Assembly (NCBI GenBank): GCA_021787665.1
Contig: JAJYLN010000016.1
Location: 1-58,103 of the forward strand
Source: a bacterium
GTDB taxonomy: Bacteria; JAMCPX01
Direction of reading: 5' to 3'
DNA: 58,103 nucleotides
Position numbers and translations under genes: made by a program. The notes under the pieces were generated by a model. That model was given only the letters and a program-made list of their open reading frames with translations, did not search any database and was not told the DNA's origin. The stretch's first letter is position 1. Each line of letters starts with the position of its first letter. This document shows, piece after piece, positions 13,092 through 34,553 of the stretch.

Positions 13092-14489
13092 ATGAATATA
13101 CTGATCATAGATGACGAGAAAGTTCTGACCATGTTTATAACTGATGCCCTGCGGCAGCAGGGCCACAGCGTTTTCGCGGCGTCCACGGCAGGGGAAGGCC
13201 TCGGTGTCCTGAAGAGAGAGCGCGTCGACATCGTCATCATGGACCTCGTCCTCCCGGACATGCACGGCCTGATGTTGCTCAAGGAAATAAAGGCAAGGGA
13301 CGAGTCTTACGAGATCATCCTGATGACCGCGCACAGCTCCAGCAGGGACGCCATGACAGCCGTAAAGATGGGCGCGGACGGCTACTTGGTAATGCCCTTC
13401 CAGCTCGAGGAGCTCGAGATCGCCGTCAGGAAGGTCGCGGAGAAGATACGGACGCACCGGGAGCTCAGCTTGCTGAGGAGCAAAAGTGCGGCGGTGACGC
13501 TCAACTACCATATCGGCACGTCGAAAGAGATAAAGGACGTCTACGCCCGGGCGATGAGGATCGCCGGGGCCGCGCACCCGGTGGTGTTGATCGAAGGAGA
13601 GAGCGGTACCGGCAAGGAACTGCTCGCGAACTTCATACACAGGGCCTCCCGGAGAGCCAGAGAAGTGTTTATAGCGGTAAACTGCGCCGCTCTATCTGAG
13701 CATCTCCTCGAGGAGGAGTGCTTCGGATACGAGCCGGGCGCCTTCGCGGACGCGAAGAAGCGCAAGAAAGGGCTGGTCGAGCTGGCCGACGGCGGATCGA
13801 TATTTCTCGACGAGGTATCCGAGCTTTCCCCGTTGCTCCAGGCCAGGCTGCTCAGAATCATAGAGACGAAGGCGTTCTCGAGGATCGGCGGAGAAAAAGA
13901 GATGAAGATCGACGTCAGGTTCATCGTCGCGACGAACAGGGAGCTGAAAGCGCTCGTCGTCAGAGGTCTGTTCAGGAACGACCTGTACGACAGGGTCTCG
14001 GTGATGCCGATACGGCTTCCGGCCCTGGCGGACCGGAAGGAGGACATCCCGGTGCTCGCGGGCGAGTTCGTACGGTCCATGAGTGAGACCATGCAGAAGA
14101 GGATTGCCGGGATAAGCTCCGGCGCCATGAAATTGCTGCTGGACTACGACTGGCCGGGTAATATCAGGGAGCTGAAAAATGTCATAGAGCGGGCGGTCAT
14201 GCTGACGGACGGGGAGCGGATACAGGAGCAGGCTGTCCTCCTGCCGAAGGGTATGGCTCAAAACGGTTGGAGTACGTACGCGGAGGGAATAGCGAAGACC
14301 GTGCTTGAAGGCAAGGAACCCCTCGGTGACATGCTCAAAAAGATAGAGAACAGCGCCATTCTCGATGCGCTTGAGAAGACCGGGTGGAACGTGACGAGGG
14401 CCGCGGCAATGCTCGGCATATCAAGGAACATGATCAACTACAAATTCAGGAAAAAGGAGATCCCGGCCAGGGGGCGGGACCGGTCGTAG
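13092..14489 (+). CDS. NtrC-family response regulator with altered GAFTGA loop and receiver Lys
   Basis: 465 aa. Receiver domain 1-120 with acidic pocket D7-D8 and phospho-acceptor D51 (IVIMDLVLPD). The switch Thr is T79. The conserved receiver Lys is replaced by Met101 (GYLVMPFQ). AAA+ domain about 140-375: Walker A GESGTGKE, Walker B GGSIFLDE, DWPGNIRELKN. The L1 loop that contacts sigma-54, normally GAFTGA, reads GAFADA. Fis-type helix-turn-helix at the C-terminus (NVTRAAAMLGISRNMINYKF). Lineage is clearly sigma-54 activator, but the loop change makes classic sigma-54 activation doubtful. No sensor kinase is adjacent. It stands directly before the surface-protein cluster and is a natural candidate regulator of it. 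Confidence 0.92.
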   Translation: MNILIIDDEKVLTMFITDALRQQGHSVFAASTAGEGLGVLKRERVDIVIMDLVLPDMHGLMLLKEIKARDESYEIILMTAHSSSRDAMTAVKMGADGYLVMPFQLEELEIAVRKVAEKIRTHRELSLLRSKSAAVTLNYHIGTSKEIKDVYARAMRIAGAAHPVVLIEGESGTGKELLANFIHRASRRAREVFIAVNCAALSEHLLEEECFGYEPGAFADAKKRKKGLVELADGGSIFLDEVSELSPLLQARLLRIIETKAFSRIGGEKEMKIDVRFIVATNRELKALVVRGLFRNDLYDRVSVMPIRLPALADRKEDIPVLAGEFVRSMSETMQKRIAGISSGAMKLLLDYDWPGNIRELKNVIERAVMLTDGERIQEQAVLLPKGMAQNGWSTYAEGIAKTVLEGKEPLGDMLKKIENSAILDALEKTGWNVTRAAAMLGISRNMINYKFRKKEIPARGRDRS

Positions 14490-14612: not shown

Positions 14613-14686
14613 AAAAAAAAGCAAAAAAAAGTCAAAAAAAAGGTCAAAAAAAAGATCTTGACAAGCGCATCCCTGTTTGGTACGTT
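14613..14686 (+). promoter_or_regulatory. Phased A-tracts and promoter of the surface-protein cluster
   Basis: Four runs of exactly eight A start at 14613, 14623, 14634 and 14646, spaced 10, 11 and 12 bp, close to one helical turn, which predicts intrinsic bending. Four bases later comes TTGACA (14658-14663), a 17-bp spacer and TACGTT (14681-14686). The A-tracts can also act as an UP element for RNA polymerase. The leader to the ATG at 14796 would be about 100 nt and includes AAGGAGG. Confidence 0.6.
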
Positions 14687-14795
14687 TACATCAAAGCCAG
14701 TTTATGTTTGAACAATTAAAGGCGAAAGCCTTTGCAGATAGATGAATTACGGAATCAGTACAGAGGGAAGAATAAAAAACTTAAGGAGGTTAAGT

Positions 14796-17636
14796 ATGAA
14801 GGTCAAAAGGGGCATTAAACTCTTGGTTGCGGCTGCGGTTGCGTTCGCAGGGGTTGCAATCCTTGGTAATGCTAAAAATTCCTATGCAGCTCTCCCGGAG
14901 GTTGACAGCTATACGTTCCAGGTGAGTGTTACGAATAGTATGCTGACATACCTCGACACGCAGGTGTACAACATCCTGACGTCGCCTACCGTCACGACGA
15001 TGATCCAGAGCCTGATCACCAACGCATTTACGGACGGGACCACGGGCGCACCGAAGGCACTGGTAGACACCTGTCTCAGCATTCCCCTCGTGGGAATGAC
15101 GTGTATTGCTGTCTATATCGAGGACTTCGATAATGACGGCGTCGTCTTTACGTACACGGTACCGTCCAACGGCATCGTACTTGCAGCGACCCCGGGAGGC
15201 GCCTATGTGAACGCGCCCCGCGGCACACTCTCGGTTGGCATTAACCTCGCCAACGTGAAGCTCGATGTCTCGCTGTACACAGGTACGGCGTATACACAGA
15301 CGGCGGGCGCAACGGTGACCGACTATGTGCTTGCTTCTGGTCAGGCGATGGTACCGAACATCTCCCTGGCCCTCGATATGGCGGTCATCGGAGGTAATTT
15401 ATCGACCTACGATCCGACCGAGGCGAACCCGATTACATGGCCGACCCTCCACGGAAACCCGCCCAACCCCATGCCGGGCACAGAGGTCGGTATCCGGGTG
15501 GTCGGTGCTGATATCGGCGTCGGCTTCCATTTCGGTCTAACGCCTTCAGCTACCACCGGGCTGGTAAACGAGGGGCTCTGCACCTCGGCGTATGCTTCCG
15601 GCTGTCCGAACGTGCTCGTGAACGACGGAAGTGAATGTTATAAGTCGTGTCTGGTGTCGTCCCTTATCCCGTACATCGATGCGCAGTTCAACATCCATGC
15701 GGCAGATAACTTCAATGCAGCGCTCGAGTACTACCTCGGACCGACCATGCTCCTCGATGCTGCAACACTGTTGACATCCACGATCACGGACCCGCTGACC
15801 GGCGGTGGGATCAGTATCAATGCTGGCTTCTTCTGGGACTTTACCGCGACCAGCAATGGCTTCAATCTCTACCCAGGCGGTCTCGGGCTTGCCTTGTCAT
15901 ACACCCTCGGTACCTGCGTTACGCAGCCCGTGGGCGCAAAGCCTATCACTGATACCGTAAGTCTGGCACCCTATCTTCTCGGTGCGACGACGCCGAACGG
16001 CCAGCCCTACATGCTCGGGCTCCTGATACACGAGAACCCCCTGTCTGAGCTGCTGTACAATGTCTACACGGACGGTATCCTGTGTATGGACTTAAACAAC
16101 AATACGCCGATGATTGGCTCGCTCCTCGGTACCCTCTTCTCGACGAGTATATTCGGTCTGCTCTTTACGCCGCTCAATACGTACTATCCGAACAGGCCCA
16201 TGCAGATAGAGGTGGTACCGACGCTGGTAAATCCGGCATCGCTTACCTTCAACAATAATATCGATACCCCGTACATTGAGACCGGGGCAGATATAACGAC
16301 CTCGAACCCGGCATTGACGTTCCCGACGACCACCGTCGGGCCTGCAGGGACGAACGGATCGCTCGTCGTGGGCATTCCGCACCTGCTCCTTAACTTCGAC
16401 GTCGATACGACCGGGACGGGCACGTACAACAGGGTGTTCGGCCTTGACCTTGGCCTCACGGCGGGTATCGGTATATCCGTATGGACCGATCCGACGCTGC
16501 CGACATGGGGCACCGGGAGCCCGACAGGAAGAGTAATAAGGATATTGATGGGGGACACTCCCACGGTCAATTCGTATATTCCTTATTCAGCGGCCATCCC
16601 TGCTACCGTTACCGGTATGGCGCACATCCTCGGCGAAGTTCTGCCGACGATTCTGACAGCGGCCATCAACGGCAGACTCGACCTTGCGATAGATATCTAT
16701 CCGCTCCTCGGCATTACCTTTACGGTTCCGTATATCGGAACGACTGGACCTCTGGATGCGAGAGGCCTTCCGAGTAATCTGGGTGCGTTTGTAGGACTGG
16801 AGTACAACCTGGATCCGGGACTCGTGTTTTCGCTCCTGGACACGCTGGGTCTGTCTCTGACCTCCCTTACCAGCGGCTTGAAACTGGACGCGCCGCAGTT
16901 GAGTGGCGTGCAGCTCGGTATGCCGTACCCTGTAGTATATGCGAACGTGGGAGACGTCAGCGGATCGAACATCGTCCTCAACGCGAAGCAGACGAGGGAG
17001 GCAGGAATGACTGCTTACTCGTCCGTCATAGACCTCTCTTCGTACGAGGCGAACGGACAGAACCCGGGCATCGCCTACAGCTACAGTCTTGACAACGGCC
17101 CGTGGAGCTTCCTGAGTCCGTCAGGCCAGATCGCCCTGAGCGACCTGTACGAGGGCAAGCACACGATCGAAGTGCAGGCAGTCGACTCCAATATGGTGAT
17201 GTCTGCCAACACCGCAAAAGTCAGCTTCGACATTGACTCGGTACCGCCGACACTCTCTGTGGCGGGTCCGCAGGGTGTCGTGAACGGGAGCAGCGCGACC
17301 TATGTCGTCGACGCCTCGGACGCACAGACACCGGCTGATCAGATAACGGTGTCGTACAAGCTCGACAATAAGTCGTGGAGCATACCGACGACCGATAAGG
17401 ATATCACCCTGAGCGGGTTGACTTCCGGAAGTCACACGGTCGAGATACGCGCATTCGATCTTGCCGGCAATGCAAGTCAGGTAACGGCAAACCTGAATAT
17501 CGCGAATGGTGTGAAGGCAGGGTTCTTCGGCTGTTCGACTGCGGACAGCGGGAACGCCGGTATACCGGCCATGCTGATCATACTGCTTGCTCCGCTCGCG
17601 TTCGTGATTGTACTGAAGAGAAAGACTGTTAGATAG
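14796..17636 (+). CDS. Large exported surface protein A (possible BPI-like/TULIP fold, Ig-like domains, C-terminal anchor)
   Basis: 946 aa from ATG at 14796, preceded by AAGGAGG; an in-frame ATG at 14742 lacks a site. Signal peptide of about 31 residues ending NSYA. The body (about 32-720) is hydrophobic and beta-rich with amphipathic helices (VSVTNSMLTYLDTQVYNIL; LSELLYNVYTDGILCMDL; HILGEVLPTILTAAI) in the order seen in the two barrels of BPI-like lipid-binding proteins; this fold call is inference. Two Ig-like repeats follow (about 745-905, each with a SLDNGPW/KLDNKSW strand and DSVPPTLSV between). The tail has Cys in GFFGCSTADSG, one membrane helix, and LKRKTVR, resembling MYXO-CTERM sorting tails. 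Full-length paralog of the protein at 20366-23848. A strong terminator follows. Confidence 0.8.
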   Translation: MKVKRGIKLLVAAAVAFAGVAILGNAKNSYAALPEVDSYTFQVSVTNSMLTYLDTQVYNILTSPTVTTMIQSLITNAFTDGTTGAPKALVDTCLSIPLVGMTCIAVYIEDFDNDGVVFTYTVPSNGIVLAATPGGAYVNAPRGTLSVGINLANVKLDVSLYTGTAYTQTAGATVTDYVLASGQAMVPNISLALDMAVIGGNLSTYDPTEANPITWPTLHGNPPNPMPGTEVGIRVVGADIGVGFHFGLTPSATTGLVNEGLCTSAYASGCPNVLVNDGSECYKSCLVSSLIPYIDAQFNIHAADNFNAALEYYLGPTMLLDAATLLTSTITDPLTGGGISINAGFFWDFTATSNGFNLYPGGLGLALSYTLGTCVTQPVGAKPITDTVSLAPYLLGATTPNGQPYMLGLLIHENPLSELLYNVYTDGILCMDLNNNTPMIGSLLGTLFSTSIFGLLFTPLNTYYPNRPMQIEVVPTLVNPASLTFNNNIDTPYIETGADITTSNPALTFPTTTVGPAGTNGSLVVGIPHLLLNFDVDTTGTGTYNRVFGLDLGLTAGIGISVWTDPTLPTWGTGSPTGRVIRILMGDTPTVNSYIPYSAAIPATVTGMAHILGEVLPTILTAAINGRLDLAIDIYPLLGITFTVPYIGTTGPLDARGLPSNLGAFVGLEYNLDPGLVFSLLDTLGLSLTSLTSGLKLDAPQLSGVQLGMPYPVVYANVGDVSGSNIVLNAKQTREAGMTAYSSVIDLSSYEANGQNPGIAYSYSLDNGPWSFLSPSGQIALSDLYEGKHTIEVQAVDSNMVMSANTAKVSFDIDSVPPTLSVAGPQGVVNGSSATYVVDASDAQTPADQITVSYKLDNKSWSIPTTDKDITLSGLTSGSHTVEIRAFDLAGNASQVTANLNIANGVKAGFFGCSTADSGNAGIPAMLIILLAPLAFVIVLKRKTVR

Positions 17637-17645
17637 ATTTTTGTC

Positions 17646-17700
17646 AGGGACGGGACAGCGCCACACCGTGGCGCTGTCCGTCCCTTTGTTTTTATTTTTG
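17646..17700 (+). terminator. Rho-independent terminator after surface protein A
   Basis: An 18-bp stem (17646-17664 with 17668-17685, one bulged G) closes on a three-base loop and is followed by TTTGTTTTTATTTTT. It begins 9 nt after the stop codon. It should limit transcription into the lipoprotein genes, whose first start codon lies 5 nt beyond it. Confidence 0.9.
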
Positions 17701-17705
17701 CACTT

Positions 17706-18938
17706 ATGAAGCTTCTGCACAGAGTATATAGTGTATCCATCCTGAGTATCGCCGTACTGATATCGTGCGGGAGAAGTTTCCAGCAGAAGACTACCAACCC
17801 CATCGGAATCCCCATGCAGACCCGTATTATCGACTCCGGGAGCGGTGTAGGCATCTATCCGTCGCTCGGCTACAGCTCGTCCGGCGTTCCCTATGTATCG
17901 TATCAGGACAGCTCGACCGGCACCCTGAAACTTGCATGGCTCGACATTACCGGTCTGTGGGACAACGTGGACGTTGCAGGAGGGAATGGGTATGTGAATG
18001 CCGGCTCCTTCGACTCCATGGACATAGCGAACGATACGTATTACATCAGTTATTTCGACCCACAAATACACGGCCTCGAGATGGTCAACGGGCCGCTGCC
18101 GGTGGTAGAGGCGCCTCTGTACCCGGCTGTCATCACGCTCGACAAGCCGACGAACAGCACCTATTCTGCGGGCGTCTATACCTCCCTGAAAATGGGGCCG
18201 GGCGGCACGGCCTATATAGGCTACATGGACATCCTCGGATCGGACCCTGCCAAGATCTATGGAGCCTATCCGCGGTTCATCACGTGGACGCCCTCCGGGC
18301 CCTCTGCGCCGGAGGTCGTGGATCCGGGCATGGAAGGGAAGGCATTCTCGGTCCCTCTCCGCAGCGTTGCCTGCTCGACCTCCCTGGCCGTTGCAAAGGA
18401 CGGCACGGTTTGGCTTGCCTATTACGACGTGTTCGACAGGGAACTGAAGATTGCCAGTAAGAAGGTCGGCGGGACGTGGACCTCGCAGGTCGTGGACACG
18501 TTCGGGGGTATCGAGGGCGACGGCGAGTATCTGAGCCTCGCGCTCGATAGTAAGGGCTTCCCGCACCTGTCCTATATCGACGATACGTACGGCGTCACGA
18601 GGGCGCTGAAGTATGCGTGGTACGACGGCACGACTTTCCATACGGAGGATGTGGACAGGGAGTTCGGCGTGATGTACGGGCCCAACTCCCTGGTCATGAA
18701 CCCGTCGTCGGAGCCGGTGATAGCGTATTTCGACGAGACCTTCAATGACCTGAAGATCGCGTTCCAGTACAACGGCGGATGGTACACCTACGTCCTCGAC
18801 ACGGCCCTGCTGTCCGGCGAGTACCCGTCACTGGCCCTCGCACCCACCGGCGTTCCGACCGTCGCGTACCGTCAGTACGCGCCGGGGTTTCAAAGGGTTA
18901 CGCTGAAGTTCGGTATCATTGACTACAATAATCTATGA
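17706..18938 (+). CDS. Lipoprotein with seven propeller-type repeats (1)
   Basis: 410 aa. Lipoprotein signal VSILSIAVLISC with Cys at residue 21. The mature part is seven repeats of about 50 residues with the core S-L-x-hydrophobic-x-x-x-G-x-P-x-V/I-x-Y-x-D followed by an LK-A strand (for example SLALDSKGFPHLSYIDD and SLALAPTGVPTVAY). The count of seven suggests a closed beta-propeller, which is inference. There is no clear ribosome site and the ATG stands in the tail of the terminator, so it may be expressed by read-through or from a promoter I cannot see. It overlaps the next gene by 4 nt. Function unknown; likely anchored in the outer membrane. Confidence 0.8.
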   Translation: MKLLHRVYSVSILSIAVLISCGRSFQQKTTNPIGIPMQTRIIDSGSGVGIYPSLGYSSSGVPYVSYQDSSTGTLKLAWLDITGLWDNVDVAGGNGYVNAGSFDSMDIANDTYYISYFDPQIHGLEMVNGPLPVVEAPLYPAVITLDKPTNSTYSAGVYTSLKMGPGGTAYIGYMDILGSDPAKIYGAYPRFITWTPSGPSAPEVVDPGMEGKAFSVPLRSVACSTSLAVAKDGTVWLAYYDVFDRELKIASKKVGGTWTSQVVDTFGGIEGDGEYLSLALDSKGFPHLSYIDDTYGVTRALKYAWYDGTTFHTEDVDREFGVMYGPNSLVMNPSSEPVIAYFDETFNDLKIAFQYNGGWYTYVLDTALLSGEYPSLALAPTGVPTVAYRQYAPGFQRVTLKFGIIDYNNL

Positions 18939-20215
18939 AAATGAGGCAGGGAACATACCAGAACATAATCCCCGTTTTTTCGTGCAGAGAAGAGGGGGCG
19001 GAGCGGCCAGGCTTTGCAGCGCGCCTCCGGCACCGTATCCGCGCTGCCGGGACCGCCGCGGCATGCACCGTTATCTTTGCCGTGTCCCTGCTCGCGGGCT
19101 GCGGCAGGCCGGGGAACCTTACCAGCTCAAATATCCTGCCGGGAGTGCTTACCTATACCATCGACAGCAGCGACGATACCGGGTACTTTACCTCCCTCGC
19201 TATGGATGCCAACAACAACCCGTGGATCGCCTATTACGACAATACGGCCGGGGCACTCAAGCTCGTGCATTATAACGGCGCGAGCTTCGTGACCGAGGTG
19301 GTCGACGACAGCGGCGATGCCGGCTGGTATCCCTCGCTCGCGCTGGATGCGAGCGGCGAACCGCATATAACCTACTACGACGCAAAGGACCGGGACCTGA
19401 AATATGCGTATAAGACGCAGCAGGGCTGGGTCATCAATACCGTGGACGACCTGAATATCGGCGGGTACGGCGAGTATTCCTCGTTAAAGCTCGACGTCGC
19501 CGGCAACCCGCATTTCTGTTACATTACCCACGTCCTCAATGACGAGCTGCGGTACGGCTTCGTCACGACGCAAGGCTTTGTGCTCCAGACCGTGGACAGC
19601 GGCCAGTCCATTTTGCCGACCACGGGCACCGGTAATATCGATATGACGACCTCCCTGCAGCTTCTGCCCAACGGCAGCCCGGTGATAAGCTATTACGATG
19701 CCTCGAACGGCATCCTGAAGATGGCGCAGTACGACTCGGCGACCCAGACCTGGAACGATCAGGTCGTTGCCGATGGCTCGGAGCTGCCCTCCCCGGGCAA
19801 TTTGCCGCCGTCGAGGGACGTGGGGATGTACAACTCTCTGGTGCTGGACGGCGACAACAATCCGCACATAAGCTATTACGACGCGGACTACGGCACGCTG
19901 CGGTACGCCTATTTCAACGGCGTCATATGGACGTACCAGTACATCGATCCGAAGGGCTTTACCGGCGCGTACAACTCGATTGCGCTCGACCAGTCCGGCA
20001 ACCCGGTCGTGGCATATCAGGACGTGACCAACGGGGCCGTGAAGATAGCATTCGACCAGAAAGGATCGTGGAAGACCTACTATATCGATAGCTCGAACTA
20101 CTACAGGACCGGCTACTGGATCAGCCTGGCAATAGCCGGAAACAACGGCATCGGGATCAGCTACCGGAACGCGACTACTCATGCGCTCGTATTTTCATTT
20201 GTCAATTATTATTAG
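18935..20215 (+). CDS. Lipoprotein with seven propeller-type repeats (2)
   Basis: 426 aa, paralog of the previous gene, starting at an ATGA overlap. The N-terminus is unusually long for a lipoprotein signal: about 45 residues, rich in Arg, before the hydrophobic run and lipobox SLLAGC; a later start may be used, though none has a good ribosome site. Seven repeats again, more regular than in the first protein (SLALDASGEPHITYYDAKDRDLKYA; SLVLDGDNNPHISYYD; SIALDQSGNPVVAYQD). Probably a seven-bladed propeller exposed on the outer membrane. No catalytic motif recognised. Confidence 0.82.
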   Translation: MKMRQGTYQNIIPVFSCREEGAERPGFAARLRHRIRAAGTAAACTVIFAVSLLAGCGRPGNLTSSNILPGVLTYTIDSSDDTGYFTSLAMDANNNPWIAYYDNTAGALKLVHYNGASFVTEVVDDSGDAGWYPSLALDASGEPHITYYDAKDRDLKYAYKTQQGWVINTVDDLNIGGYGEYSSLKLDVAGNPHFCYITHVLNDELRYGFVTTQGFVLQTVDSGQSILPTTGTGNIDMTTSLQLLPNGSPVISYYDASNGILKMAQYDSATQTWNDQVVADGSELPSPGNLPPSRDVGMYNSLVLDGDNNPHISYYDADYGTLRYAYFNGVIWTYQYIDPKGFTGAYNSIALDQSGNPVVAYQDVTNGAVKIAFDQKGSWKTYYIDSSNYYRTGYWISLAIAGNNGIGISYRNATTHALVFSFVNYY

Positions 20216-20251
20216 TAAAAATGACAGAGACTATATGGAAGAAAAAAGGGC

Positions 20252-20280
20252 TTGACTTTGACGATCCTGTATGGTAAAAA
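20252..20280 (+). promoter_or_regulatory. Putative promoter of surface protein B
   Basis: TTGACT (20252-20257), 17-bp spacer, TAAAAA (20275-20280). The spacer end GATCCTGTATGGTA closely matches CATCCCTGTTTGGTA at the same place in the promoter of paralog A, so the two paralogs probably share control. A purine run GAAAAAAGGG precedes the -35 box. Confidence 0.45.
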
Positions 20281-20365
20281 AAAGACGAGGATTGGCTGTC
20301 CGATCGATAGTCCCGGTACGAGTGTGCCGGGGAAAGGGTGATCGACTGCCGGAAGGAGGGACAAC

Positions 20366-23300
20366 ATGAAGCTAAAATATATCTTGCTCGGCGCGGGCTC
20401 GTTGTTGGTGCTGCTCCTCGGGAGTGTGATCTTACTGTCTGCGAGCACACGGTTTTCCATCGGTCATTATTCGGTAAGCATCCTCGATATCATAGAGTCC
20501 GAACTCCACAGCTCGCTCGTGCCAAAAAAGATCGCGCAGACCGTGCCGGTGATAGACACCGCTGCAAAGACGGGCACCCAGGCCGGGAACGGCGGGGGCT
20601 TGGTAGAGGTGGCGCAGGAGCTTCAGAACGCACAGCAGCCCATCACCCAGAACGGCGCTATTGCACCGGTGCGGCCTGCGTACACCAAGCAATCATATCA
20701 GCAGGTGTTCAAGCAAGGGTTCGATTTCGAGAGGGCCCAGATCCTGTCATCGACCACGCAGCCACAGGCCGCGGCTCAGCCGCAGCTCACCCCCCAGGGC
20801 CTGCCGGACAACTATAGTACCGACGGCGTGATGCCGGACGGCCTGGTCGTACGGCTTACGAACAATGCAATCGCCGCACTCCCGGCGCAGCTCGCGAACA
20901 TGCTGGAGAGCCAGTATATCAATCAATATTTGAACGCTGCCATCGTGACACAGACCTTTTCCGGCAACTTCTGCTATGCCGAACCCAACTGGACGTGTCC
21001 GTTCAAGTGTCTCGGCAATTGCGGACAGTGTTCCGGTAATTCCTATACCCTCACCGGCTGCGGGGCAGGGGCCATCAATGCCTGCAACAGCGGCCAGACC
21101 ACGACCTGCAGTTGGTCAGCGGGCACGTCGACTTGCGGCGTGACAAATTCATGCTATTCCTGTCAGACTACAGGGCAGACATGGCAGTGTACGTCCAACG
21201 GGGGGTACCCGAGCGATTGCTGCGGCTCTGTCCCGTACGGAGGAGAGATCACCGACAACTGTCAGCCATCTGCGTGTGCCTTGCCTGCCAATGACGGCAT
21301 CGTCCTGTACTACGACAAGGCCGCGGTCACGATCGCCCAGAACCCCATAACCTGCCCCGGCTATGCGCCGGCAACGCTGAACATCTCTATAGTGCTGAGC
21401 TACGACGGCATTACGCCGTCATGGGCGCCTGTCCAGCCCTGGCCCACCTGCAGCAACCCGAACGGCAACGGCAGCCCGCCCATTGCGGTCGGGGACATCA
21501 ACTATACGGCAACATTGCCGGTCATCGGGACCATGAGCGGCAACGGCTATGCTGCGGCGAACGAGATCGACATCCAGGCCTACGCGACCCCGGCCATCAC
21601 CACCGGGACGACCACATGGGGCCCGGACACGACCCTGAGCTTTACCGCGGCCGGCGTCGGCGTTTCGTCCGTGACCATGCCGGGGTTCTATGTGACCCTG
21701 ATAACCTGGTCGTGCTCCATCTTCGGATGGGACCCGTGTTTGGACTATCTCGACCCATGGCTCAATGGCATGATATCCGGCATGGCGCAGGGCATGGTCC
21801 AGAGCGCCGTGACCAGCATGCTGAACGCCCAGCTTGCCAAGATGCTGAACTCCGCTATCGGTCTGCCCCTCGACCTGAATTCCAAGATAGGGAACCCCTT
21901 TACCCTCGGGACGAACTGCTATCTGCTGGGGCTATACCCGGAGCCGAACTGTACCAGTCAGCTCGGGTACAGCGGCATGTATGGAGACTGTTACGGCCTC
22001 AAAATAGCGCTCGACTTCGGTATGCTCCCGGCCATCTATACGCCGTATTATAATGCGGGCAACGCGTGCGACAACTCGTGCGTCGATACCACGAGCTTTA
22101 ACCCGGTGAACGTGCTGCTGCAGAACCCGCCCACGACCGGCGTGAATGTCGCTGCGAACGTGTTCAATAACGATACCGTGCCCAGCGGCTCATACCTCTA
22201 TGGCGGCACCTCCGTTCCGATTCCCTGGTCCGGCTACCCGTACGACCTCGGCATAGGTCTGTCTCAGGACGTGCTCAACGAGCTGTTATATGACCTGTAT
22301 ACCTCCGGGCTTACCTGTATCAACATCAATGTCAATTCGTTCCCGTCGCTCGCATCGATGCTCAACGTCAATGCCTTCAAGGCCATCGTTCCTGCGATTA
22401 CGGACATAGCTGACCCGGGTACCTATGTCTCCATAGCGCTGGTGCCGAGGTCGTCCGGCTCGAACACCCCGCCGCCCATATACGCGCAGTTGGGGCATAC
22501 CTTGTCCGTGAACTCGTTTGCCGCAGGCTCGACGTGGAGCTCCGGGACCGGGTATAATCAGTCGAACTCCCTGACCACGAGTATGATCTATGCCGACATA
22601 CCGAACTACCAGATAGACTTCTATGCCACCGTGGGCGGCATACCGGAGCGGATGTTTACCCTGAACTGGAACCTGCAGGCCGGCGTCGACGTGAACTATC
22701 TTGTCCCCACGCCCTTGGGCGGCAACGGAGAGCCCACGACGTTCGGCGTGCTCCACCTGGGGGCCCTCCTTGTGCCGCAGATCAATGGCATCACCAACAT
22801 ATACCCGGGCATAACGCCGTACATGGCGCACGGCATCTCGCAGTTGATCCCGACCATCCTGTCCGCTGCGATAGGCACGACGATCAATATGCCTATCAAC
22901 CTCGGGGCGCTCGGCATCAACGTGGGGTTCTGGTACATAGGCCCTGACCCGGAGGCAGTTGATGCGGACGGCAACGGCACGCCGGACTTCCTGTCGATGT
23001 ATGCGTACGCGTACGGGAACCTGAACTGGAGCGCCATACTGCCCTCTTCACAGTATAATGCCCTGACGACACAGGGCGCGCCGCGTGCGTACATCGTGGT
23101 GCCCAACGGCAGCGACGTGGGCCTTGCCCCGGGTCCCCTTGCGCTGGGGACACTGAACGTCGACGGCAAGCAGTCCAAGCAGCTCGGTCTCCAGCCGCTC
23201 AACAGCACGATAAATTACGTGGGCTATGATCCCATGGACTACAATGCGCCCCTGGAATACACCTACCGGATCGACGGCGGGCTGTGGTCGCCCTTCACGG

Positions 23301-23848
23301 TGTCCACGCAGGCAGAACTGCCGTACCTGACCGAGGGTGTGCATACCTTCGAGGTGATGGCGAAGAACGAGGGCGGGTTCTCGAACCTGACGCCAGCATG
23401 CCTCACCTTCCGTGTGGACTCGGTCCCGCCGACGCTGTCGGTCAAGAACATGAAGAACGGGGCTGTGGTCGGTTCGGACGTGGAGATCGATACCAAGGCA
23501 TGGGACTATCAGACCCCGGCAGACCAGATCGCGGTCAAGTACAGCCTTGATAACGGCGCGTTTAAGACCGTGAGCACGTCCGGCAGCGGCAGCTCGCGGA
23601 TATTCCTCGATGAGCTTTCCATGGGACAGCACCAGGTGGTCATTACGGCCACGGACAGGAGCGGCAATACTTCGAAACTCGACCTCGCCTTCGTATCGAA
23701 GGCATCGAGCAGTATGGGGTGCGGCTGTGCAGGTACACGCCCGGCAGGCAAGGGCGACGACCTCGGCATGCTGCTTCTGGTGATGTCTTTTATGGCAGCG
23801 CTGATGCTGAAGAGAAGGCTTGCTTACCAGAAGCACGCGGCAAAATAA
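20366..23848 (+). CDS. Large exported surface protein B (paralog of A, with a Cys-rich insert)
   Basis: 1160 aa; GGAAGGAGGG lies before the ATG. N-terminal hydrophobic helix (about 5-28) with no obvious cleavage site, so it may be a signal anchor. Residues 30-160 are polar and Gln/Ala-rich. DGLVVRLTNNAIAALPAQL opens the first barrel-like part, in the style of BPI proteins. Residues about 208-310 are a Cys-rich insert with 16 Cys, including the segment CPFKCLGNCGQCSG, absent from A. LNELLYDLYTSGLTCININ and GISQLIPTILSAAI correspond to the segments in A. Two Ig-like repeats near 945-1110, then GCGCAGT, a membrane helix and KRR: a MYXO-CTERM-like tail. TULIP assignment is inference. Confidence 0.8.
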   Translation: MKLKYILLGAGSLLVLLLGSVILLSASTRFSIGHYSVSILDIIESELHSSLVPKKIAQTVPVIDTAAKTGTQAGNGGGLVEVAQELQNAQQPITQNGAIAPVRPAYTKQSYQQVFKQGFDFERAQILSSTTQPQAAAQPQLTPQGLPDNYSTDGVMPDGLVVRLTNNAIAALPAQLANMLESQYINQYLNAAIVTQTFSGNFCYAEPNWTCPFKCLGNCGQCSGNSYTLTGCGAGAINACNSGQTTTCSWSAGTSTCGVTNSCYSCQTTGQTWQCTSNGGYPSDCCGSVPYGGEITDNCQPSACALPANDGIVLYYDKAAVTIAQNPITCPGYAPATLNISIVLSYDGITPSWAPVQPWPTCSNPNGNGSPPIAVGDINYTATLPVIGTMSGNGYAAANEIDIQAYATPAITTGTTTWGPDTTLSFTAAGVGVSSVTMPGFYVTLITWSCSIFGWDPCLDYLDPWLNGMISGMAQGMVQSAVTSMLNAQLAKMLNSAIGLPLDLNSKIGNPFTLGTNCYLLGLYPEPNCTSQLGYSGMYGDCYGLKIALDFGMLPAIYTPYYNAGNACDNSCVDTTSFNPVNVLLQNPPTTGVNVAANVFNNDTVPSGSYLYGGTSVPIPWSGYPYDLGIGLSQDVLNELLYDLYTSGLTCININVNSFPSLASMLNVNAFKAIVPAITDIADPGTYVSIALVPRSSGSNTPPPIYAQLGHTLSVNSFAAGSTWSSGTGYNQSNSLTTSMIYADIPNYQIDFYATVGGIPERMFTLNWNLQAGVDVNYLVPTPLGGNGEPTTFGVLHLGALLVPQINGITNIYPGITPYMAHGISQLIPTILSAAIGTTINMPINLGALGINVGFWYIGPDPEAVDADGNGTPDFLSMYAYAYGNLNWSAILPSSQYNALTTQGAPRAYIVVPNGSDVGLAPGPLALGTLNVDGKQSKQLGLQPLNSTINYVGYDPMDYNAPLEYTYRIDGGLWSPFTVSTQAELPYLTEGVHTFEVMAKNEGGFSNLTPACLTFRVDSVPPTLSVKNMKNGAVVGSDVEIDTKAWDYQTPADQIAVKYSLDNGAFKTVSTSGSGSSRIFLDELSMGQHQVVITATDRSGNTSKLDLAFVSKASSSMGCGCAGTRPAGKGDDLGMLLLVMSFMAALMLKRRLAYQKHAAK

Positions 23849-23865: not shown

Positions 23866-24891
23866 ATGGTCGGGCAAGCGGCCGTTGAGGGAGTGCCCGG
23901 AGCAGGTAATGAACGGTACCGTATGGTGGACGCAGACCGACAGAAAGACCTGATTACCCGGCGCCTGCGTGCATCGTACTATCCCTATAAAACCGCGACA
24001 TCCGAGTTCTTCCTTGGACATTTCCTCAAGCAGTTCAAGGGCATAGCATGCGTCTTCATGTACGGCTCGATGCTCAACCCGGGGCTCTCCACGCCCACCA
24101 GCTTCCCGGACTTTTATATCGTCGTGGACCGTTATGCAGGGTTCTACGGCTCGCGCGTGCACACGCTCCTGAACAGGTTCCTGCCCCCGAACTCCTATTT
24201 CCTGAGGCTGAGCGAGAACGGCACTCCCCGGCCGTCGAAGTATTGCGTGATCGATCGGCAGGACCTGTACCGGTATACCCACTACCCGCATATCAAGGAC
24301 TTCTTTATCGCCGGCAGGCTCGCGAAGCGCATCGCCATACTCTATGCGAAGGACGATGAATTCCTGGCGGAGTTTATCGGCAGCATCTACCAGGCGATGC
24401 GCTTCAATGTCATGTTCGCCCTTTCGGAGCTGTCGTATGCCGGGGCGTACGCAGACGGCTTCTCGTTCGACGATTTTATGATCCGGCTGCTCGGTCTGAG
24501 CTACCGGGCCGAGATCAGGACCGAGACACACGACAAGATAACGAGCCTGTATACCGGCGAGAAGGAGTTTTACCGGGATATCTACAGCCAGTTCCTCGAG
24601 CAGGAGGTACAGGACCGGACCGTAGAGAGGACAGGCCGGGCCTACCGGACCATCAGGCCTTACTTTACGCCGGCATATATGGCAGGGTTTATCAGCAGGA
24701 GCAGGAGGAGGGCCGTGTACCGGTGGCCCAAGAGCATCTACACCTTCAGCAATTATGTCGACTATCTCGTCCTGAAGGTGGAGCGGACGACCGGGGAAGA
24801 GCTGCGGCTGTCGCACTGGGACCGCAGGCTGCCGCTCGTGTTCGGCTGGAGGCACCTGTTCCGTCTGCTCAGGAAGAAGGCCATTAAATAG
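23866..24891 (+). CDS. Tam41-like nucleotidyltransferase (possible CDP-DAG synthase)
   Basis: 341 aa from ATG at 23866 with AGGGAAGAGG in front; the frame is open further upstream inside the preceding gene but that part is shadow. CVFMYGSMLNPG followed by PDFYIVVDRY matches the GS...DxxVVD nucleotidyltransferase core of the Tam41 family, the mitochondrial-type phosphatidate cytidylyltransferase. The C-terminus (TTGEELRLSHWDRRLPLVFGW) is typical of bacterial homologues usually left as hypothetical. If correct it would make CDP-diacylglycerol at the membrane. It starts 17 nt after the surface protein B gene and converges with the DedA gene 9 nt away. The link between a phospholipid enzyme and putative lipid-binding surface proteins is suggestive only. 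Confidence 0.65.
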   Translation: MVGQAAVEGVPGAGNERYRMVDADRQKDLITRRLRASYYPYKTATSEFFLGHFLKQFKGIACVFMYGSMLNPGLSTPTSFPDFYIVVDRYAGFYGSRVHTLLNRFLPPNSYFLRLSENGTPRPSKYCVIDRQDLYRYTHYPHIKDFFIAGRLAKRIAILYAKDDEFLAEFIGSIYQAMRFNVMFALSELSYAGAYADGFSFDDFMIRLLGLSYRAEIRTETHDKITSLYTGEKEFYRDIYSQFLEQEVQDRTVERTGRAYRTIRPYFTPAYMAGFISRSRRRAVYRWPKSIYTFSNYVDYLVLKVERTTGEELRLSHWDRRLPLVFGWRHLFRLLRKKAIK

Positions 24892-24900
24892 CGGGACGCT

Positions 24901-25500
24901 TTACCGGGGCTTTCCCCGGGAGTGCAGGTAGCCGATCACGATGAACGCGATGACGAACGGCAGGGCGAGCACGAACAGGTATTCGAAGTCCTTTGCATAC
25001 CTGAGGACCAGGTCGAAATCGCTTCCCATGATGTACGCCGGGACCACCCACAGGGGTACGGACAGGATCCCGGCGGCCGAGTCGACCAGCAGGAATTTCT
25101 TTACCCTGGTCCCCATGATGCCGGCGGACAGAAACACCGCGATCCGCAGGCCGCTGATGAACCGTGCTATGAATATCGCCTTGCTTCCGTGACTGCTGTA
25201 GAAGCGCGTCACCCTCTCGAGCCCGGCGTCGCCGACGAACCGCCGTATGATCGCGTGGTCGCGTATGCCCTTTGCCCACCTCCTGCCTATCGCGAACAGG
25301 ATGAGGTCACCCCCTATGACACCGAGAAAATCGACGATGCCGGTTATATACAGGGAAGTGATGCCCTTGTAGGCCACGTAGCCCGATATGACGAGGAGCA
25401 CCTCCTCCGGCACGGGCAGGCCGAGCCCGCACAGGATGAGGAACACGAACAGGGCAGCGTAGGTGAAATGCTCCGCATAGGCGGTCAGGAAGAGCTCCAT
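24901..25500 (-). CDS. DedA/VTT-domain membrane protein
   Basis: 199 aa. Family motif PVPEEVLLVISGYVAY near the start, GGDLILFAIGRRW, and FIARFISGLRIAVFLSAGIMG in the centre, with four to five membrane segments. DedA proteins affect membrane homeostasis and act as lipid carriers such as undecaprenyl-phosphate or phosphatidylethanolamine flippases. It is the last gene of a minus-strand set with the patatin gene (4-nt gap) and the SpoIID-like gene, all envelope-related. Confidence 0.92.
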   Translation of the reverse strand: MELFLTAYAEHFTYAALFVFLILCGLGLPVPEEVLLVISGYVAYKGITSLYITGIVDFLGVIGGDLILFAIGRRWAKGIRDHAIIRRFVGDAGLERVTRFYSSHGSKAIFIARFISGLRIAVFLSAGIMGTRVKKFLLVDSAAGILSVPLWVVPAYIMGSDFDLVLRYAKDFEYLFVLALPFVIAFIVIGYLHSRGKPR

Positions 25501-25504
25501 GGTA

Positions 25505-26344
25505 TCAACGTGCCGGCGTCCTGCTCCTGATGAGCTCGATGTGCTTCGAGACCGCTTCCTTGCCCCGGTGGATGAGCAGCGGCACCCTCTCGAAATCGAA
25601 CGGCCCTATGTCGTGCACGTCCGGGGCGATGATGACATCCGCAAACCGCAGCCTCTCCATGCGCGTCTCATTCACGATCACCTGGATGCTCTTCGTTATG
25701 ACGTCGAAGATGTTCGTCGGCTCCTTCTTGAGTTGTTCCTTGTTCACGAGCTCCACGCCTATGACGAAGTCGATCCCCCGGATCTTCAATATCTGGCAGG
25801 GCACATCCGTGAGCAGGGAGCCGTCCACATAGGTGTGGCCGTCTATCTTCATGGGTACGAAGATACCGGGTATGGCGCTGCTCGCCATGACCGCGTCCGC
25901 GACGCTCACGTGCTCGAACAGATGCGGCGCGGCTGTCGTCAGGTCCGTAGCAGGTATGTAGAGGGGGATAGGCGCATCCTCGATCTTCGCATCCCCGAGA
26001 AACTCGCGGACCAGCGCGCCGATGCCCTCGGTCGAGGCGAGCCCCATCCTCGGTACCCGCAGCTTCAATATGTCCGACATGCGGAGCTTCTCCGCGCGTG
26101 CCTTGATCCGCTCGAGGCTTATCCCGAAGGCGAACAGGGCCGCGACGATACTCCCGGCTGACGACCCGGCCACCGCGTCTATCGTAATGCCTTCCTGTGC
26201 GATAGCTTCGAGCACGCCGATGTGGGCAGTGCCCCATACGACGCCCCCGCCCAGGGCGATCCCTATGGTCTTCGCCCTTTCTTTCTTTATGAAGGATCTC
26301 AGCCTGTTCAGGATAGGGATTCTTCTCGATTTCCTTTCTTCCAT
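25505..26344 (-). CDS. Patatin-like phospholipase
   Basis: 279 aa from ATG at 26344; the open frame extends upstream into the SpoIID gene without a good start. Catalytic Ser in GSSAGS, oxyanion loop GGGVVWG, and the dyad Asp in VDGSLL, the full patatin set. No signal peptide, so it should act in the cytoplasm or on the inner leaflet, hydrolysing acyl esters of lipids (RssA-like). The start has no clear ribosome site and is 5 nt from the upstream stop, so coupling to the SpoIID-like gene is likely. Confidence 0.92.
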   Translation of the reverse strand: MEERKSRRIPILNRLRSFIKKERAKTIGIALGGGVVWGTAHIGVLEAIAQEGITIDAVAGSSAGSIVAALFAFGISLERIKARAEKLRMSDILKLRVPRMGLASTEGIGALVREFLGDAKIEDAPIPLYIPATDLTTAAPHLFEHVSVADAVMASSAIPGIFVPMKIDGHTYVDGSLLTDVPCQILKIRGIDFVIGVELVNKEQLKKEPTNIFDVITKSIQVIVNETRMERLRFADVIIAPDVHDIGPFDFERVPLLIHRGKEAVSKHIELIRSRTPAR

Positions 26345-26349
26345 GACAA

Positions 26350-27510
26350 TCAGTACAGCTTCTCTATGCGGACGCCCGTATAGTAAAAATGGATGATCTG
26401 CCGGTAGGTGTAGCCTTTTCTCGCCATCCCGTACGCTCCCCACTGGCACATGCCCACGCCGTGACCAAAGCCCCTCCCCTTAAAAAACAGTGTCCCGTTC
26501 TTTGCGCGGACATGGAACAGGGTGCTCCTGAGCTTATCGTACCCTACCACCGAACGCAGGGTGGCACCGTCGAGATCGATGTTGCCGTGGTCCGTGACGA
26601 CCCTTGCGACGGTGACCCGCTGCGTCCTGCTTCTCTTCATTACCCTGAAACCGTACACGTGGGACAGGGTATACCCCTTTACGATCAGTCTCCGGGCAAG
26701 CTGCTGAAGGGAGAGGGCGTATTTCCAGTTTAACCCTGGCGCCCCTTTGCAGAAGTTGCATTTGACCGATCGCAGGTACGGGTAACGGTAGCCAATAGCG
26801 TCCTCAGAATTCTCAGTCTCGCCGCCGCACTCGGAGTGGTACATAGCGAGGATCGGCTTGCCCTGGTAGGTGATGATCTGGCCCCGGGTAGCGTTGACGG
26901 CCTTCCAGCCCCTGCTGTCCTCGGAGCCGGCGCCGCTGTACACCTGGTCCATGAAGTCGGCCGCCATGTCGTAGTATTGGTTGAGGTGGCGCTCCTTCTG
27001 CCACAGCGCGTAGGTCCTCGCCACGACGGCCTGTGCTTCGAGAGCCTCCAGGGGCCAGTTGTGCGGCATCTCCGCATTGACGAGGCCTGCCACATAGGAC
27101 TCGAGGTTGACGACGTCGATGACCACGAGGTGGCTGTTGTCTATGTTCGCTATCTCGAGGTGGCCCCGCAGGAGCCGGTCGTTTATCTTCACCACGCCGC
27201 CGGAGAACAACAGCGTCACCATGCGTGCGGGATACAGTTTCCGATCCACCACCAGGCCGTTGTTGCCCGCAGACAGGATGAGGTAGGAGTAGCCGGGGTT
27301 CCTGAACAGGGCGAGGTTCCGGTAGGTGTCGATGATCTGAATGCCTTTGCCCTCTATGTGCAGGGTGGATGCATCGCCGAATATCTCGACCCGTATCCCC
27401 GGTACCGTGCCATTCCCGGAGACCATGGACGGGGCAAGAAGCACGGCGGCGGCCAGGGCGCATGCCCGGACGATGGCTTTCCCGGTGATAGTCCTTCGCA
27501 TGTCGCCCAT
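26350..27510 (-). CDS. SpoIID/LytB-domain protein
   Basis: 386 aa with a signal peptide (hydrophobic 14-28). SpoIID core: LVNAEMPHNWPLEALEAQAVVARTYAL cut to its key part AEMPHNW..EALEAQA, and near the end GRGFGHGVGMCQWGAYGMA. Family members are lytic transglycosylases or amidase enhancers acting on denuded peptidoglycan, and they occur in non-sporulating diderms. Position 3 before the GQWGA motif is Cys where Ser is common. First gene of the minus-strand set; the divergent gene at 27587 shares the upstream region. Confidence 0.9.
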   Translation of the reverse strand: MGDMRRTITGKAIVRACALAAAVLLAPSMVSGNGTVPGIRVEIFGDASTLHIEGKGIQIIDTYRNLALFRNPGYSYLILSAGNNGLVVDRKLYPARMVTLLFSGGVVKINDRLLRGHLEIANIDNSHLVVIDVVNLESYVAGLVNAEMPHNWPLEALEAQAVVARTYALWQKERHLNQYYDMAADFMDQVYSGAGSEDSRGWKAVNATRGQIITYQGKPILAMYHSECGGETENSEDAIGYRYPYLRSVKCNFCKGAPGLNWKYALSLQQLARRLIVKGYTLSHVYGFRVMKRSRTQRVTVARVVTDHGNIDLDGATLRSVVGYDKLRSTLFHVRAKNGTLFFKGRGFGHGVGMCQWGAYGMARKGYTYRQIIHFYYTGVRIEKLY

Positions 27511-34416: not shown

Positions 34417-34524
34417 GGTCCTTACCTCCTTTATTTCCGGAGCGGATCGGCCTCCGGCTGGAATTTTTCTATCACATCATTTAAAATAAACAAGCTATTT
34501 GTGCGTGAGCCGGGCGTCCTGCCG

Positions 34525-34553
34525 TTGACAGGTCTCCTGTCTCGCGTTATGCT
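34525..34553 (+). promoter_or_regulatory. Sigma-70 promoter for the M23 peptidase gene
   Basis: TTGACA (34525-34530), 17-bp spacer, TATGCT (34548-34553). The predicted leader is about 150 nt long before the ATG at 34713; I see no known riboswitch in it. Confidence 0.65.

Follow-up and report, generated by a model that had tools for sequence, protein, structure and literature searches.

Putative surface-anchored BPI-type lipid tubes encoded with propeller lipoproteins at a conserved bacterial locus

A locus of four genes, A-L1-L2-B, is carried by a stretch of 58,103 nucleotides (contig JAJYLN010000016.1, positions 1 to 58,103, forward strand; hereafter the window) from a bacterium of the lineage JAMCPX01 (assembly GCA_021787665.1), whose genome is 2.25 Mb in size. 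We consider it moderately probable that the proteins A and B are surface-anchored lipid tubes of the BPI type and that the propeller lipoproteins L1 and L2 are their partners. In the proposed mechanism, A and B would be secreted and anchored at the cell surface, each bearing a BPI/LBP-type TULIP double barrel on a stalk of immunoglobulin (Ig)-like domains. Their hydrophobic tubes would bind lipids, or hydrophobic molecules of other kinds, and shuttle them, and L1 and L2 would be outer-membrane lipoproteins folded as seven-bladed propellers, acting as physical partners of the tubes or as ligand-presenting platforms.

Gene set and architecture of the encoded proteins

The four open reading frames reported in the initial annotation were found in the order A-L1-L2-B, all on the forward strand. 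Protein A (14796..17636; 946 aa) comprises a signal peptide, a predicted TULIP region (residues ~33-735), an Ig-like pair and a GC-type tail, and protein B (20366..23848; 1160 aa) a signal peptide, a linker, a predicted TULIP region (~150-935) with a Cys-rich insert, an Ig-like pair and a GC-type tail. The start of A at 14796 was preferred over the mechanical start at 14742 because it has a good Shine-Dalgarno sequence (AAGGAGG) and fits the orthologue better. Between A and B are encoded L1 (17706..18938; 410 aa; lipobox VLISC) and L2 (18935..20215; 426 aa; lipobox LAGC), whose genes share the 4-nt overlap described earlier (ATGA, 18935..18938, stop of L1 and start of L2, + strand).

The comparison set consisted of nine genomes of the phylum (G000-G008), from one family and four genera; several are only 80-87% complete, so that absences of genes are soft. 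It includes a shorter relative of A and B, named C (~785 aa; genus g3), which has the same Ig-like pair and tail. A and B had been described as full-length paralogs. Indeed, they match in BLASTP at E 4e-40, with 30% over 588 columns (A 386-943, B 603-1151), a region that corresponds to the second half, the Ig-like pair and the tail. The description therefore holds for the C-terminal ~560 residues, whereas the N-terminal halves gave only a weak profile match of 39 columns at the very start, correctly placed (p 0.004); those of B and C matched better (p 3.5e-6). B also contains an additional N-terminal linker and a Cys-rich insert. In A, B and C, standard domain libraries recognised Ig-like domains only, in the C-terminal part. 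All three families share two cysteines, one on either side of the start of the predicted second barrel (Cys374/Cys430 in A, Cys568 or 572/Cys651 in B, Cys284/Cys334 in C3), which could possibly form a disulfide.

The paralogy of L1 and L2 was borne out over their whole length (E 8e-28, 27% over 409), as were the seven repeats of each: a single regular expression detected every repeat of L2 (at 85, 132, 181, 238, 299, 346 and 395) and four of those of L1 (51, 102, 158 and 373), the other three (~225, 276 and 327) being recognised by eye. L2 matches the Pfam family BNR_4 at 30.7 bits (cut-off 27.3), L1 alone had no BNR_4 match in the Pfam scan, and a joint L1/L2 profile matches the PDB entry 5mum at E 6.4e-7. 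With their seven repeats and the BNR_4 match of L2, these proteins resemble the BNR_4 and other seven-bladed propellers related to 5mum and 4irt; they differ in being short lipoproteins in which no enzyme family was detected, and in forming a tandem pair beside TULIP-like proteins. The lipobox cysteine (VLIS/C in L1, LLAG/C in L2) is followed in both by Gly-Arg, and there is no Asp at position +2. In enterobacteria, a lipoprotein without Asp at this position suits sorting to the outer membrane, and such sorting would suit L1 and L2 if the same rule holds here.

Resemblance to BPI, LBP and CETP

Proteins A, B and C are probably homologous to TULIP proteins, although this homology is not established. 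LBP_BPI_CETP_C was the only Pfam family matched by the second half of A (E 0.019, 14.9 bits) and by that of A', its orthologue in G007 (E 4.6e-4, 20.1 bits), and both proteins enter the model at position 35. A profile of A, B and C searched against PDB reached LBP (4m4d) at E 0.53, in the same register as the Pfam matches. The sequences of BPI, LBP and CETP used as further targets were taken via PDB searches. In Smith-Waterman comparisons with shuffled sequences, A against BPI gave p 0.0026 and C against LBP p 2.7e-4, and no signal was obtained for the second half of B. The strongest of about eleven profiles tried was a C-led joint profile of A, B and C against BPI, LBP and CETP together, which aligned 220 collinear columns over both domains with a score of 39.7 (p ~4e-7; 120 column shuffles: mean 14.4, maximum 19.7); as controls, the reversed target scored 18.5 and propeller, OmpA and Ig families at most 19.2. 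The weaker alignments, where they match, mostly do so in the same registers, namely at the N-terminal helix of the first barrel in B and at the linker and first helix of the second barrel in A and C. This weak, consistently registered similarity lends independent support to the role in lipid handling suggested in the initial annotation, lipid binding itself being inferred.

The likeness to human BPI (1ewf), mouse LBP (4m4d) and CETP (2obd) thus consists of a weak collinear profile similarity over both domains and, in low-confidence models, of the order of helix, short helix, strands, long helix and strand in the second half. In contrast to these proteins, A, B and C are bacterial, have a region of 500-800 aa instead of ~460 aa, are acidic and not cationic, and carry an Ig-like stalk and an anchor tail, B having in addition its Cys-rich insert.

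Bacterial TULIP families include P47, OrfX2, YceB, DUF4403, DUF2140 and DUF2993 (PMC6791001). DUF4403 (PF14356) is a predicted bacterial full-length BPI homologue with a region of ~460 aa (Levine 2019, PMC6791001). No other full-length pseudodimer of the BPI type was found described from bacteria in the open literature; DUF4403 is itself predicted, and has in common with A, B and C that it is bacterial with a predicted BPI-type double barrel. Membership in DUF4403 was rejected, as a Pfam scan of eight members gave no PF14356 match; the nine genomes gave no match to this model, and neither did the control genomes. A search of the open-access literature, which leaves most subscription journals outside, brought up no account of surface-sorted BPI-type proteins that are accompanied by propeller lipoproteins.

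Sorting, conservation and expression of the locus

Both large proteins end in a sorting tail, which consists in A (17508..17633, + strand) of Gly-Cys, a hydrophobic stretch and a basic end (tail model E 1.1e-14) and in B (23696..23842, + strand) of GCGC, a hydrophobic stretch and a basic end (E 8.4e-19). Tails of this kind also occur in C and in two more proteins, and GC does not vary among the nine tails compared. A search of the own genome with the tail model at E 0.1 gave four matches, three of them strong (A, B and a third long open reading frame). No named CTERM model was matched by the tails, apart from Synerg-CTERM at E 0.22 for A. The sole CPBP protease of the genome scores 113.1 bits against the myxosortase core model NF040914 Mrt_core (cut-off 100) and lies under the cut-offs of MrtX, MrtC and MrtP, and a GspD secretin of the type II secretion system is also encoded (549 bits). 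In Myxococcus, a myxosortase cleaves tails of this kind, and type II secretion brings the proteins to the surface (PMC11980579). By analogy, A and B likely follow this route, and would then be lipidated and exposed at the surface. The likeness to MYXO-CTERM/myxosortase sorting (PMC11980579) lies in the C-terminal Cys motif, the transmembrane helix, the basic end and the presence of genes for an Mrt-core protease and GspD; unlike MYXO-CTERM, the tails of A and B do not match the MYXO-CTERM model and the tail model has only four matches in the genome (E 0.1). The surface location proposed earlier is supported by the lipoboxes of L1 and L2, the Gly-Cys/transmembrane/basic tails of A and B, the protease above the Mrt_core cut-off and the secretin. 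The Gly-Cys tail is also found on long proteins encoded at L103 (G000:C3, near 34432-34551) and at L037:2284-6024 in G007, the latter resembling, by eye only, a subtilisin-type protease with FG-GAP-like repeats.

The order A-L1-L2-B, whose recurrence was to be checked, was found again in G007, a genome of another genus, where A', L1', L2', B' and B'' follow one another on the same strand; the 4-nt overlap is retained there and B is tandemly duplicated. Protein identities are 57% for A', 57% for L1', 63% for L2' and 56% for B'. The flanks differ: a barrel-like protein is encoded upstream and a papain-family protease downstream in G007, and a sigma-54-type regulator upstream and a Tam41-like protein downstream in the window. 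Since orthologues that are 56-63% identical stand in the same order in G007 and the own genome has no further copies of A/B or of the propellers, the module is more than a chance arrangement. Between the tandem B genes of G007 (L013:3123-9623), identity is ~61-85% per 150-bp block over ~1.4 kb of the 5' part and 100% over the next ~1.9 kb, into which the downstream region also falls. This suggests that gene conversion took place recently, or else an assembly effect, the first barrel being divergent.

In three genomes of genus g3, C belongs to an operon C-OmpA-P-Q with overlapping or near-touching genes (L040:9071-15506; L041:377-6812; L042:2161-8479), in which P, a propeller lipoprotein, shares 40% identity with L2, and the lipoprotein Q has propeller repeats like those of glycoside hydrolase 130. 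In G007, OmpA-P-Q lies on one contig and the C gene on another. Profile searches detected both TULIP-like proteins and propellers in G000, G003, G004, G005 and G007, and neither of them in G001, G006 and G008; in G002 a C gene is cut by the contig end. Homologues occurring independently of one another, which had been named as a sign against a shared role, were thus not encountered in the nine genomes, yet the C-type gene of G007 stands on a contig apart from OmpA-P-Q. A scan of a genome collection with one degenerate motif gave 46 candidate stretches, including three relatives, all of C-type and apparently the loci of G003, G004 and G005. No relatives were found in viral contigs, and plasmids yielded only short Ig-like or generic propeller similarity. 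The OmpA-type barrel protein of g3 has 5-8 matching places in every genome from G000 to G008, apparently a lineage-wide expansion. Two open frames of 1551 and 1590 codons in G003 (G003:C21 and G003:C42; L067 and L068) contain stretches matching the propeller profile, and each is followed by another exported repeat protein.

Sequences resembling sigma-70 promoters, by consensus match only, precede A (14658..14686, + strand; TTGACA-17-TACGTT) and B (20252..20280, + strand; TTGACT-17-TAAAAA). At the same positions, G007 has TTGACA-17-TATAAA before A' and a perfect TTGACA-17-TATAAT before B'; in a general promoter scan, sigma-70-like sites were not in excess over chance. A terminator-like hairpin with a T-rich tract lies between A and L1 (17646..17700, + strand; -35.5 kcal/mol, z -8.4), and a smaller, weaker hairpin occurs at the same place in G007. 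Because of this hairpin and of the promoter-like site before B, a single operon was rejected, and L1-L2 may be expressed by partial read-through of the hairpin and B separately. The four-gene module of the initial annotation is therefore retained as a conserved set in a conserved order, but not as one simple transcription unit.

Just 5' of A, an NtrC-type sigma-54 response regulator is encoded (13092-14489); a search for a sigma-54 site 5' of A, motivated by this regulator, found none at up to 3 mismatches. Directly 3' of B and on the same strand lies a Tam41-like relative (23866-24891; PF09139, above cut-off) of phosphatidate cytidylyltransferase (CDP-diacylglycerol synthase), adjoined on the opposite strand by genes for a DedA/VTT-domain protein and a patatin-like phospholipase (24901-26449). 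These lipid-related genes are weak evidence for a lipid role, and the neighbourhood is different in G007.

Alternative explanations and significance

Several observations weigh against lipid tubes with propeller partners. Both LBP_BPI_CETP_C matches, that of A' (20.1 bits) and that of A (14.9), are under the curated cut-off of 23 bits. The profile support depends on the alignment (p 2e-4 to 0.0014 with other joint profiles, 0.006 to 0.16 with single families or subsets), and no TULIP match came from four PDB profile searches restricted to the TULIP region or from two profiles of the second half. AlphaFold, with inputs that excluded the G007 sequences, gave a predicted local distance difference test (pLDDT) score of 26.5 for the TULIP region of A when B and three C relatives were supplied with it, and of 33.4 for the second half of C. 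The low scores are ascribed to too few relatives in the input, and owing to them the TULIP fold of A, B and C is held as no more than probable; the models themselves, to which little weight is given, show in the second half a helix, a short helix, several strands, a long helix and strands, in a TULIP-like order. Furthermore, the TULIP regions contain ~2% Lys+Arg (2.1% in A), the region in A has a net charge of -34, and the cationic tip by which BPI binds lipopolysaccharide is absent. As the tubes are acidic and so poor in Lys and Arg, BPI-like electrostatic binding of lipopolysaccharide is unlikely, and a neutral cargo, as for CETP, would fit better. Finally, co-occurrence rests on few independent events, since all genomes come from one small phylum. 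The low pLDDT values (26 and 33) and the Pfam matches under cut-off agree with an alternative in which A, B and C are large, secreted, beta-rich proteins of an ordinary sort, adhesins or matrix components that have Ig-like domains and an anchor but no lipid tube and that resemble BPI and LBP by chance. Surface adhesins commonly have Ig-like domains and very little charge. The BPI/LBP signals nevertheless appear in three divergent families at a single collinear register, and no shuffled, reversed or beta-rich control reached the score of the best joint profile; in our view, this alternative is rather unlikely.

About as doubtful, or slightly more so, is that the four genes encode separate surface proteins which are merely adjacent, tubes and propellers not cooperating; the strong terminator-like hairpin after A, the promoter-like site before B and the separate contig of the C gene in G007 agree with this, while the order and the L1/L2 overlap are kept across genera despite different flanks, and tubes and propellers coincide in presence and absence over the nine genomes. 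By analogy with myxobacterial TraA/TraB, in which a sorted receptor has an OmpA-type partner, the module could also be an apparatus for cell-cell recognition or outer-membrane exchange. Indeed, C has a myxosortase-type tail and precedes an OmpA-domain barrel gene in the same g3 operon, and TraA is a myxosortase substrate (PMC11980579). However, a PA14 domain was reported in none of the eight proteins scanned and the window has no adjacent OmpA gene, and we regard this possibility as improbable. These alternatives overlap with the preferred reading, in which lipid tubes anchored at the surface have propellers as partners, and the probabilities given to them are not expected to add up to one.

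A more far-reaching form of the preferred reading, which we advance tentatively, is that the locus encodes a bacterial counterpart of serum LBP and CETP on the outer surface, in which Ig-stalked, myxosortase-sorted BPI-type tubes would capture or transfer lipids outside the cell together with propeller lipoproteins. Few TULIP proteins are known from bacteria, and they have hardly been studied. If the interpretation is correct, the BPI-type kind would extend to the cell exterior with conserved partner genes, and myxosortase-type sorting would be tied to a small, little-studied phylum. The finding would also bear on whether the BPI architecture originated in bacteria and add a possible system of extracellular lipid handling.

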